From NCBI RefSeq assembly GCF_033807715.1, contig NC_084596.1, forward strand, positions 37,534,879-37,598,878: a stretch of 64,000 bases of DNA, written 5' to 3'. This DNA comes from Cololabis saira. Taxonomy: Eukaryota; Chordata; Actinopteri; Beloniformes; Belonidae. The translations under genes were made by a program, and so were the position numbers. This document shows positions 17,301-19,830 of the stretch, in pieces. A model generated the notes under the pieces. It saw nothing but the letters and a program-made list of their open reading frames with translations. It made no database searches and was not told the DNA's origin. How positions within the stretch are numbered: position 1 is the first letter of the stretch; every line of letters starts with the position of its first letter.

Positions 17301-19830
17301 CAATAATGCTCAAAACTTAAAATCTCACTCTAAAGCAAAGCTGAACACTTACCAAAAACTGTGTCCACACTTTGTCATGTGTGCCTCTTCTATCATTTCG
17401 AAGCAGATGGGACTGCAAATTAGACAGAAAGTGGTGTAAAAACGCAGCTTACACAACAATCTTGCAATATCCTTCAATCTCCACCGACACAAACATGCTC
17501 CCTAGCCGGGGTTGCAGGCTCAGCCGCGGACACAAACTAACCAAACAAAGTCGTTGCTCTTGTCCTCGTAGGAGTTGAGCAGGCCGTTGTACAGCGGTGC
17601 CGGGTGGAGGGACTTCTTCCTGCTCCCCGAGGTGGCGGTGGGTCTGCTGAGGGAGGCGAACCCTCCCCGGGACGAGGGCACCGTGGCGAGGCTGGGCACG
17701 GCGGAGCCGCCCTCGCTGGCCGCGGCCGCCGCCGGCCGGGGGGCAACGCTCCCGGCGGGGCTCCCGTTGCTGGCAGAGGAGCCAAAAATTGTACTCAAGT
17801 AAAAGTACTGTTACTTCAGAACAATATGACTCAAGTAGAAGTAAAAAGTAGTCATCCAAATAATTACTTGAGTAAAAGTAAAAAAGTACTTGGTGAAAAA
17901 ACTACTCAAGTACTGAGTAACTGTTGAGTAACGTCTGATTTATTTTTTTAACACAACCATTCAAACAGACAAAAGTACAAAATAATCATCTTCAGGCAAA
18001 TTAAATCAATAAAATAATAAAATAAATTAAAATGAATAAAAAATAGCTTAAATTAAATTCAAGTACTTTAATAAATAATAAAATAAATAAAATAACAGAA
18101 TAAAAAAAATAAATTAAGCACAAAATTTCAAGCCTTTGTACTTTTCTTTTTTAACCAGGCAGAACTAGAACAAACATGAACTCATAGAAACTCTGTGTGT
18201 GTTTGAGTCTGTGTAAATGTGACAAAACATGCAAAAACAAACATTTTTCCCAAAGAATCACTCAGTGATGTCATGAGATTGACACGTACGCGGATAAAAG
18301 GGATAAAAGAAAAGTAACGAGCTCAACGTAGCGGAGTAAGCAGGGGTGCAGATCTGATGTCAGGATTGGGGGGGGACCAATGTGATTTTAATTTTTAAGT
18401 TTTTGCCAATATGCAACTCATACCATGCCATAAATTGGTAAAGGCTCGCCAAAAATATTGCACAGGGAATAATTTATTGTGCTTACCTTTCTTGTTTATT
18501 TGTCCTAAACAGCCAACAGTGTGTGTCACTGCTTACTTAACTGTTATAGTCGTAAATCATAATTCTAATATTACTTAAATAATAAAATAATACTTCTCCG
18601 GGAGAAGTGAGCCACATGTTGGCTACGGGCAGGTACGAACGTAAACAGAACGTTGACAAAAAGTCATTGTCGAACCCGTCAAAAATTTTAAAAATATTTA
18701 TTCAGACTAAAAAAAAAAAAATTATGGAGTAGCAATACTTTCATTCTGTACACCTCAAAATGCACTGTGGATGTATTATTTTTTTAGAAATACATTTTGA
18801 ATAAATATTCTACATATTCAACCTTTAAGTCTGAAAATACATTCAATTTTACATTCATTCAATTTTGAATAATTTAGGGTATTTTTATTGGGGGGGGGGG
18901 ACAATTCATGTTTTTCAGAAATTGGGGGGGACATGTAACTTGACATGTTTGTGTCAAGTAACGAAGTACAAATACTTCGTTACCTTACTTAAGTAGAAAT
19001 TTAGGTTATCTATACTTCACTGGAGTAATTATTTTTCAGACGACTTTTTACTTTTACTCCTTGCATTTTCACGCAATTATCTGTACTTTTTACTCCTTAC
19101 ATTTTAAAAACAGCCTCGTTACTCTATTTCATTTCGGCCTTTAAAAAACTATCCAGTTAAATTGCTCCATCCAGATAGAGTGAATTTGGTTGTGGTTGTT
19201 TCAGATGTTCTTGTCCAGTTTTGTTCTTACATCCGTTCCCTCAGATTCCTGCAACTAAACTTGGATGTACATTCCAATAAAGGTTAGGATAAATGATAAC
19301 ATGCCTCTGAAGTTTGACTTTTTGCACCATTACAATACTTATAGGCAACTAGTCATCATATCTCCTGCTCTCTGAAACACATGTTAATGCTCAATAGTAC
19401 ACATATATGGTTCTTTAATATATTTGCATTATACTAAGATGCATTCATTTTCAATGGCTTTTGTCCTTAATGGCTTTTTTCCCCTTTACATTACTTTTAC
19501 TTTTATACTTTAAGTAGTTTTGAAACCAGTACTTTTATACTTTTACTTGAGTAAAAAACTTGAGTTGATACTTCAACTTCTACAGGAGTATTTTAAACTC
19601 TAGTATCTATACTTCTACCTGAGTAATGAACGTGAATACTTTTGACACCTCTGAGTAAATGTAACGGGGTAAATGTAACTCGTTACTACCCACCTCTGGT
19701 TGCTGGTCACTCCGTTGCTGCCGGCGGCTCCGGCGGCCCCCGCAGCGCTGCTGCTGCCGCTGCTGCTGCCGCTCGTGCCGGGCACGGACCCCCCCACACA
19801 GCCGGGCTGCTGCGGCCGGCCGCCCGACAT
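5329..19830 (-). CDS. cop1: COP1 (RFWD2) E3 ubiquitin ligase, complete, 21 coding segments
   Basis: COP1 is a RING/WD40 E3 ubiquitin ligase that works with DET1-DDB1-CUL4 to degrade substrates such as c-Jun, ETS factors and p53. Joining the exons listed separately gives 714 codons (human 731). A Ser/Gly/Ala-rich N-terminus is followed by a C3HC4 RING at about 122-159 (C122, C125, C137, H139, C142, C145, C156, C159 all present). Then come a coiled coil at about 200-285 and a WD40 propeller from about 390 to the C-terminus VLELV-stop. All splice junctions are GT/AG, phases agree, and no stop or frameshift occurs. The ATG at 19830 (MSGGRPQQ) is chosen because human starts MSGSRQ; an in-frame ATG 22 codons upstream (19896) is possible. 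Unusual point: exon 1 is interrupted by a 1.9-kb hAT element (17774-19698) that must be spliced out. Relative to human, a SVSST-like segment before exon 5 is absent, possibly an isoform difference. Confidence 0.95.
5771..5990. mobile_element. Short MITE with CCGGACTAT/ATAGTCCGG ends
   Basis: The ends CATTTCCGGACTATTGAGCG and CGGCTTATAGTCCGGAAAG resemble the long-TIR element at 63337-63805 near the right edge (TTTTCTGGACTATAAGCCGC). Located in the last cop1 intron (6886-5347). The remainder of this intron (5991-6886) shows no recognisable gene; the open frame at 6240-6581 has no identifiable domain. Confidence 0.55.
6887..6931 (-). CDS. cop1: cop1 exon 19 (residues 695-709)
   Basis: TTTTCAG|GAGTCA to ATCAAG|GTTTGT. 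Encodes [15 protein letters not shown]. Confidence 0.95.
7144..7304 (-). CDS. cop1: cop1 exon 18 (WD40, residues 641-694)
   Basis: GTTTTAG|GAAGTG to GACGGA|GTGAGT. Encodes [20 protein letters not shown] through [15 protein letters not shown]. Confidence 0.95.
7428..7552 (-). CDS. cop1: cop1 exon 17 (WD40, residues 599-640)
   Basis: TCTTAAG|TTCGAC to CATGTG|GTAAGC. Encodes [20 protein letters not shown] through [10 protein letters not shown]. Confidence 0.95.
8342..8459 (-). CDS. cop1: cop1 exon 16 (WD40, residues 560-598)
   Basis: TCACAG|ACCACT to TTCCGC|GTAAGT. Encodes [20 protein letters not shown] through [10 protein letters not shown]. Confidence 0.95.
8666..8782 (-). CDS. cop1: cop1 exon 15 (WD40, residues 521-559)
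   Basis: CTTCAG|TGAAGC to GTGCAG|GTAAGC. Encodes [20 protein letters not shown] and then [19 protein letters not shown]. Confidence 0.95.
8879..8960 (-). CDS. cop1: cop1 exon 14 (WD40, residues 494-520)
   Basis: TTTTCAG|GAACAT to GAAAG|GTGAAT. Encodes [20 protein letters not shown] and SGSDDAK. Confidence 0.95.
9072..9180 (-). CDS. cop1: cop1 exon 13 (WD40, residues 457-493)
   Basis: TTGCAG|CTGCATC to TACCAG|GTAGGA. Encodes [20 protein letters not shown] and then [17 protein letters not shown]. Confidence 0.95.
9964..10107 (-). CDS. cop1: cop1 exon 12 (WD40, residues 409-456)
   Basis: TTTTTAG|TATTGAG to AATCAG|GTGAGG. Encodes [20 protein letters not shown] through [13 protein letters not shown]. 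Confidence 0.95.
10912..11047 (-). CDS. cop1: cop1 exon 11 (WD40 start, residues 364-408)
   Basis: TTTTCAG|ATGAGG to TCTAG|GTATGA. Encodes [20 protein letters not shown] through [17 protein letters not shown]. Confidence 0.95.
11175..11289 (-). CDS. cop1: cop1 exon 10 (residues 326-363)
   Basis: TGTTCAG|GGAAAA to ATCACAG|GTATTC. Encodes [20 protein letters not shown] followed by [18 protein letters not shown]. Confidence 0.95.
11483..11540 (-). CDS. cop1: cop1 exon 9 (residues 306-325)
   Basis: GCTGCAG|TAGTATC to GCCCAG|GTATGT. Encodes [20 protein letters not shown]. Confidence 0.95.
11757..11836 (-). CDS. cop1: cop1 exon 8 (residues 280-305)
   Basis: TCCAAAG|GAAATG to CCCAG|GTAGAC. Encodes [20 protein letters not shown] and APAPTP. 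Confidence 0.92.
11965..12024 (-). CDS. cop1: cop1 exon 7 (coiled coil, residues 260-279)
   Basis: GCAACAG|CAACTAG to GTTGAA|GTAAGT. Encodes [20 protein letters not shown]. Confidence 0.95.
12186..12254 (-). CDS. cop1: cop1 exon 6 (coiled coil, residues 237-259)
   Basis: CACTAG|GAGTCC to GAGAG|GTACTG. Encodes [20 protein letters not shown] plus KRE. Confidence 0.95.
12361..12481 (+). repeat. LINE 3' tail (TTGACAATAAAGTTGACTTG)
   Basis: The GCTGCACTGTAAGGCC...GACAATAAAGTTGACTTGAC sequence is typical of fish L2/Rex1-type LINE 3' ends. In cop1 intron 5. Confidence 0.55.
12628..12991. mobile_element. Non-autonomous hAT-like element (CAGGGTTT...AAACCCTG)
   Basis: Starts CAGGGTTTATACAG and ends GCGGAAACCCTG, with subterminal TTTAATACTTTTT motifs. 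The flanks GGTAAGTA and (A)AGTAAGTA look like an 8-bp target duplication with one mismatch. In cop1 intron 5. Confidence 0.6.
12992..15516. other. cop1 intron 5, remaining sequence
   Basis: AT-rich intron. Apart from the microsatellites at 14183-14346 and short A/T runs, I see no gene or recognisable repeat. Confidence 0.6.
14183..14346. repeat. (TA)n followed by (AAAT)n microsatellites
   Basis: About 38 TA units (14183-14259), then roughly 17 AAAT/GAAT tetranucleotide units (14275-14346). Confidence 0.95.
15517..15636 (-). CDS. cop1: cop1 exon 5 (coiled-coil start, residues 197-236)
   Basis: CTGCTAG|AATGGG to GCG|GTACGT. Encodes [20 protein letters not shown] and then [20 protein letters not shown]. 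Confidence 0.95.
15762..15826 (-). CDS. cop1: cop1 exon 4 (residues 175-196)
   Basis: ACCCAG|TAAATG to CCT|GTAAGT. Encodes [20 protein letters not shown] and HP. Confidence 0.95.
16030..16127 (-). CDS. cop1: cop1 exon 3 (RING, residues 142-174)
   Basis: CTGCAG|TTATAA to CTTG|GTAGGT. Encodes [18 protein letters not shown] and then [14 protein letters not shown]. Confidence 0.95.
16774..16832. repeat. (GT)n microsatellite
   Basis: About 29 GT units in cop1 intron 2. The rest of that intron (16128-17352) has no recognisable feature. Confidence 0.97.
17353..17412 (-). CDS. cop1: cop1 exon 2 (RING, residues 122-141)
   Basis: TTTGCAG|TCCC to TTTTTG|GTAAG. Encodes [20 protein letters not shown]. 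Confidence 0.95.
17542..17769 (-). CDS. cop1: cop1 coding exon 1b (residues 46-121)
   Basis: Inferred acceptor CTCCTCTGCCAG|CAACGGG, made from the transposon end plus target duplication. Donor TTTG|GTTAGT. It encodes [12 protein letters not shown]...[17 protein letters not shown], matching human [19 protein letters not shown]. Confidence 0.8.
17766..17773. repeat. Left 8-bp target-site duplication GTTGCTGG
   Basis: Identical to 19699-19706. On the minus strand it reads CCAGCAAC and supplies the AG used by the inferred acceptor of cop1 exon 1b. Confidence 0.95.
17774..19698. mobile_element. 1,925-bp hAT-type non-autonomous element inserted in cop1 coding exon 1
   Basis: Flanked by a perfect 8-bp direct repeat GTTGCTGG (17766-17773 and 19699-19706), the hAT signature. 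The right end is CTACCCACCTCTG. The left end is CAGAGGAGCC, lacking 10 bp present in the sister copy at 48958 (CAGAGGTGGGTAGAGGAGCC). Ends are homologous to that 762-bp copy (ACTCAAGTAAAAGTACTGTT and similar). The middle is expanded by unrelated AT-rich sequence, including a nested piece with G-runs at about 18344-18945. No transposase ORF. Deleting the element and one repeat copy restores the exon 1 frame (...GVTSN-GSPAG...). Confidence 0.92.
19694..19830 (-). CDS. cop1: cop1 coding exon 1a (residues 1-45)
   Basis: Runs from ATG to inferred donor CCAGAG|GTGGGTAG, where the donor lies in the transposon terminus. It encodes [14 protein letters not shown]...SNGVTSN; the last codon, Q45, and the next two bases are transposon-derived. 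Human exon 1 is continuous here, to my knowledge. Confidence 0.75.
19699..19706. repeat. Right 8-bp target-site duplication GTTGCTGG
   Basis: Identical to 17766-17773. Codes for the end of ...TSN in cop1 exon 1a. Confidence 0.95.

Follow-up and report, generated by a model that had tools for sequence, protein, structure and literature searches.

We find it very probable that a hAT-type DNA transposon inserted into coding exon 1 of the cop1 gene of the Pacific saury, Cololabis saira, after this lineage had split from that of medaka, and that it is removed from the transcript as a GT-AG intron. The analysis covers a window of 64,000 nucleotides (RefSeq assembly GCF_033807715.1, contig NC_084596.1, positions 37,534,879 to 37,598,878 of the forward strand), and all coordinates below refer to this window. 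The gene was located with a human COP1 query, and its exons were afterwards placed one by one. On the minus strand it spans 19830–5329 and encodes a complete COP1 of 716 amino acids (aa) in 21 coding pieces, with a RING domain at residues 122–159 and WD40 repeats (Pfam). The first two pieces, exons 1a and 1b, correspond to the two halves of a single exon in the remaining fish frames that were read.

19694–19830, minus strand: cop1 exon 1a, from the ATG to the proposed new donor, 137 nt, 3' end AACCAGAG
17542–17769, minus strand: cop1 exon 1b, 228 nt, starting with CAAC from the target duplication, 3' end GACTTTGTTTG
5329–17412, minus strand: the other 19 cop1 coding exons, all open, with GT-AG introns, the stop codon being reached (end of the last exon at 5329)

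The 21 open exons rule out the reading of cop1 as a decayed gene and bear out an earlier claim, made in a preliminary description of this DNA, that all exons downstream of the insertion are intact. Without splicing, translation would run past N44 into the element and meet a stop 27 codons later, for a total of 71 aa. The preliminary description was right that the frame runs into the element and ends before the RING domain, but it had put the stop at about 25 codons.

The insert has the structure of a transposable element. It is bounded by two identical copies of an 8-bp target site duplication (TSD), GTTGCTGG, at 17766–17773 and 19699–19706. Another member of this family, called the second copy below, lies elsewhere in the window.

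17774–19698, minus strand: hAT-like element in cop1 exon 1, 1,925 bp
19699–19706, minus strand: 5' copy of the TSD in transcript sense, CCAGCAAC
17766–17773, minus strand: 3' copy of the TSD, CCAGCAAC, with the AG of the proposed acceptor at TSD positions 3–4
19686–19698, minus strand: 13-bp terminal inverted repeat of the cop1 element, CAGAGGTGGGTAG, which holds the donor CAGAG/GTGGGT
17774–17783, plus strand: shortened opposite terminus of the cop1 element, CAGAGGAGCC, without the TGGGTAGAGG found in the second copy
18333–19653, no strand assigned: stretch of the cop1 element with short local matches only to the second copy (internal or nested)
48958–49719, plus strand: second hAT-like copy, same family, 762 bp, inverted repeat CAGAGGTGGGTAG at both ends

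The window holds 36 pairs of CAGAGG and CCTCTG spaced 100–3,000 bp apart, and a perfect 8-bp flanking repeat accompanies two of them: the cop1 element and the second copy (TSD GTTATCAC, perfect over 8 bp at 48950–48957 and 49720–49727). Since both family copies carry perfect flanking repeats, the element ends are not a product of chance. The repeat CAGAGGTGGGTAG was recovered at both ends of the second copy and at one end of the cop1 copy, the other end of the latter showing CAGAGG. The two copies can be aligned over ~560 bp at the left and 45 bp at the right, and WCTYRAGTA subterminal repeats begin 20–30 bp inside the left end of each. By its TSD length, CAGAGG ends and WCTYRAGTA repeats, the insert fits the hAT superfamily, and it is probably non-autonomous. 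The assignment assumes YARNG-type short terminal inverted repeats and the superfamily consensus. With a GC content of 0.317, the insert is poorer in GC than the exon halves on either side of it (0.774 and 0.724). The two copies differ at 21 of 619 columns in a BLAST alignment or at 34 of 555 sites in a MAFFT alignment; because gap placement decides this figure, we give no date for the insertion.

The splice sites proposed for the removal of the element coincide with its borders and those of the TSD, at a site where exon 1 is unbroken in the other fish frames that could be read.

17770–19693, minus strand: proposed new intron 1, 1,924 nt, GT-AG, phase 2

The donor, CAGAG/GTGGGTAG, opens the intron at 19693 and originates in the inverted repeat of the element, while the AG of the acceptor, CTCTGCCAG/CAAC, which closes the intron at 17770, originates in the duplicated target. 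Joining 19694 to 17769 gives GVTSN-QSN-GSPAG in frame. The preliminary description had already delimited the element with its perfect duplication, and these limits were recovered base for base; both intron borders also fall where it had put them, and the in-frame joint was reproduced by the joining itself as well as by a public protein described below.

The junction scores first among the 106 in-frame, stop-free GT/AG pairs. The remaining 105 were rejected; the best of them falls 2.45 bits short of it and would take out 42 additional codons. When pairs of any frame are admitted, it ranks 8th of 8,789 in the stretch scanned around the insert. Against the gene's own introns, the donor GAG/GTGGGT ranks 5th of 20 and the acceptor 12th of 20; on the minus strand, 0.67% of 3,596 GT and 2.9% of 3,795 AG dinucleotides score as high. 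Candidate branch adenosines, each with a T at its −2 position, occur 25, 30, 41, 46 and 57 nt upstream of the acceptor. The top donor (18486, score 7.19) and the top acceptor (18706, score 6.08) of the scanned stretch flank a candidate cryptic exon inside the element.

18487–18706, minus strand: candidate cryptic exon, 220 nt, whose inclusion would lead to a stop at codon 52

If splicing often went through this exon, the new intron would act as a switch that lowers COP1, an idea compatible with intron gain. We consider such frequent use unlikely: the public protein skips the exon, and the scores that single it out come from a hand-entered matrix.

The frame is kept by a simple rule. An AG at TSD positions 3–4 or 6–7 preserves it, as 5 + 8 minus the position of the G must be divisible by 3. 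Here the duplication offers CCAG, with the AG at 3–4, and the protein would gain QSN because the spliced transcript keeps 5 nt of the element and 4 nt of the duplication (9 nt, three codons). These residues sit in a low-complexity N-terminus rich in Ser, Gly and Ala, well ahead of the RING domain. Among the 2,143 8-mers of the cop1 coding sequence, 15.6% offer an AG at a frame-preserving position, and 6.9% do so with a preceding pyrimidine. Such an outcome is uncommon by chance. The in-frame intron is thus plausibly one insertion among others that selection allowed to survive, rather than a miracle.

The best protein hit to the joined 716-aa sequence is P0001, "E3 ubiquitin-protein ligase COP1 isoform X2 [Cololabis saira]", of 710 aa. 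It carries GVTSNQSNGSPAG, which is exactly the proposed junction; NGSRWQ apart, the two proteins are identical in every letter. It begins at the upstream ATG and skips the candidate internal exon. The isoform numbering suggests that transcript data stand behind it.

This start bears on the idea that cop1 transcription begins downstream of the element or inside it, so that the insert lies outside the main transcript. Exon 1 lies close to the promoter, and the element might bring a promoter of its own. A start of this kind is nevertheless very improbable, given that P0001 begins at the upstream ATG and that the first in-frame Met beyond the insert is M128, within the RING domain, so that a downstream AUG would not yield an intact RING. 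An element-supplied AUG was rejected as well: in the frame that continues into exon 1b, the last stop lies 15 codons upstream of the N of SNG, and no ATG follows it.

The insertion could also be a recent, rare or heterozygous allele, normal COP1 being made from an empty-site allele and the inserted allele being weakly functional. The perfect TSD, together with ~4–6% substitutions relative to the second copy in the alignable left part, would allow a young insertion, and a single assembly is the basis of the observation. We regard this as quite unlikely, as the public model takes the spliced form with an undamaged frame; a clean in-frame joint is unexpected for a null allele, and the frame-preserving TSD is uncommon by chance, at the frequencies given above.

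The insertion site was also compared with that in other proteins. Of 212 proteins fetched, 91 had a site that a pattern could recognise, the other 121 being uninformative. The medaka relative Oryzias melastigma (P0022) lacks QSN. No extra residue was present in 83 of the 91; two extra residues were found in seven (VN in three, LN in two, VS in two), not all of which were checked by eye, so that some possibly match elsewhere; and QSN was found in one, the saury. Since only one of the 91 readable proteins has QSN, it is unlikely that this sequence was copied from a homologue. V-T-S-N-G are the usual residues at the insertion site in other fish, and scripted removal of the element and one TSD copy restores MSGG...GVTSNGSPAG...NDFV. 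In 44 of the 212 proteins the frame continues past NDFV into W, as the following intron of the window also reads, which suggests that these frames derive from genomic DNA, although RNA that retains the intron would give the same picture. The site motif stands in the same open frame in 21 of the 44, showing exon 1 to be unbroken there. This agrees with the preliminary description, which had inferred a lineage-specific intron gain in an exon that is uninterrupted in human COP1; the junction in P0001 and the restriction of QSN to the saury among the proteins read support the same reading. Of 1,390 protein matches, none of the 120 listed bears the name of a needlefish or flying fish, some of these rows being nameless.

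Taken in order, the proposed events would be as follows. Once the Cololabis saira lineage had split from medaka, a hAT-type DNA transposon would have entered its cop1 gene within the first coding exon. Part of its terminal inverted repeat, CAGAG/GTGGGTAG, would serve as the 5' splice site, and the same donor is carried by both ends of the second copy. The other terminus would provide a pyrimidine-rich tract, and the duplicated target would supply the AG in CCAG/CAAC. The spliceosome would then excise the element like any ordinary intron and leave the rest of COP1 unchanged. We infer that the spliced form is the major transcript and that the insertion is fixed in the saury.

Several points weigh against intron gain as described here. 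The splice-site matrices were entered by hand, and all site scores depend on them. P0001 is an annotation rather than an RNA read and could derive in part from ab initio prediction. Searches for transcript fragments with N-terminal queries of 200 aa and 85 aa returned no shorter pieces bearing QSN. The internal donor at 18486 and acceptor at 18706 outscore the junction's own sites, and some cop1 transcripts may be unproductive through the cryptic exon. The saury is named in one row among the 120 listed of 1,390 protein matches, some rows being nameless, and a second intact saury copy of cop1 is conceivable.

The left end of the cop1 copy is short. It lacks 10 bp that are present in the inverted repeat of the second copy, the two copies starting with CAGAGGAGCC and CAGAGGTGGGTAGAGGAGCC, respectively. 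An AGAGG repeat stands on each side of the missing 10 bp. In terms of the transcript, the complement of donor positions +2 to +8 is part of what was lost. Folding of the natural sequences predicted that, whichever the orientation, the donor of the second copy pairs along its whole length with the opposite repeat (mean unpaired probability of 0.0). The donor of the cop1 pre-mRNA had a mean unpaired probability of 0.32 and is still mostly paired, its predicted pairing being local. End-to-end duplexes were likewise stronger in the second copy (−28.1 and −26.6 kcal/mol) than in the cop1 copy (−11.0 kcal/mol). This comparison sets one copy against one other copy of unequal length and ignores co-transcriptional splicing.

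Tentatively, these models could mean that the latent donor of the family is normally hidden by pairing of the repeats, and that the 10-bp loss unmasked it in the cop1 copy. It is conceivable, though far from likely, that the same loss harmed one transposon end and so could turn a mobile element into a fixed intron. Alternatively, as the alignment indicates, the short left end may have arisen when an internal YAGAGG was used as a new terminus. If other copies behave alike, the family would be of the introner type, in a vertebrate and with a defined on-switch. The hiding of transposon splice sites by inverted-repeat pairing becomes experimentally testable.

End pairing also bears on the recently described SOS splicing, in which a transposon is excised from the mRNA and the flanks are ligated by RTCB; its trigger is the pairing of the element's ends, and GT-AG borders are not known to be needed. 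The process has been reported for metazoan mRNAs (PMC13247085). As the route by which the cop1 element is removed it is extremely improbable, considering that the junction of the public protein lies exactly at GT-AG borders with good splice sites and that the ends of the cop1 copy pair weakly compared with those of the second copy.

Transposon-born introns are already known as a kind; among them, the cop1 case is well resolved and is unusual as a young vertebrate hAT case. Giroux reportedly described maize Ds in 1994 as a de novo intron. Like the cop1 element, Ds belongs to the hAT superfamily and gave rise to an intron; it did so in a plant and, reportedly, in laboratory mutant alleles, whereas the cop1 insertion lies in the reference allele of a vertebrate gene.

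In introners, transposon termini and the TSD supply the splice sites (PMC9860276). As proposed for cop1, those of Chrysochromulina carry the 5' site and co-opt the 3' site, and those of Aureococcus add codons from the element and an 8-bp TSD; an intron GC content below that of the exons and an aquatic host are further similarities (PMC9860276). Introners differ in being multi-copy as introns, whereas a single intron is described here, and their family medians of 30–654 nt are below the 1,924 nt of the cop1 intron (PMC9860276). Among animals and land plants, that survey records introners in two groups only, both of animals, with no vertebrate pattern (PMC9860276).

A closer parallel is slc26a2 of notothenioids, two introns of which have been attributed to putative transposons; in one of them, the gt and ag fall within the repeats (PMC12357937). 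Intron 3 of this gene, made by NTE-1, resembles the cop1 intron in its teleost host, in the inverted and direct repeats within a coding exon, in the gt/ag within repeats and in its later lengthening by another repeat (PMC12357937). It differs in its 4-nt direct repeats and TGT...ACA ends, which indicate another transposon type than the 8-bp hAT-like TSD of cop1, and in its presence in five notothenioid species, the cop1 intron being so far found in one (PMC12357937).

Intron gain is described in published abstracts as very rare in vertebrates, and the slc26a2 study notes that older gained introns no longer reveal their origin (PMC12357937). At cop1 one can still read the element and its duplication, the site in its empty state and the splice junction. 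The model in which the transposon provides the donor and the target duplication the acceptor is therefore directly testable in a vertebrate, and in a conserved regulatory gene. To our knowledge, this case of a young, fully readable hAT-type intron in a vertebrate gene is new, which is not to claim that the cop1 intron is missing from the published literature.

Elsewhere in cop1, two acceptors 18 nt apart at 15619–15636 (minus strand), in the exon at 15636, account for the presence or absence of NGSRWQ; the public isoform X2 lacks these residues because the second acceptor sits 18 nt downstream in that exon. The short form also occurs in the fish proteins P0012, P0022 and P0024. A scan of the whole window with Rfam at gathering scores gave no match. 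Upstream of cop1, on the opposite strand and head to head with it, lies pappa2, seen as an open reading frame at 33733–34335 (plus strand) that matches the solved Pappalysin-2 (8sl1, E = 4e-73) and contains a Notch/LNR domain.

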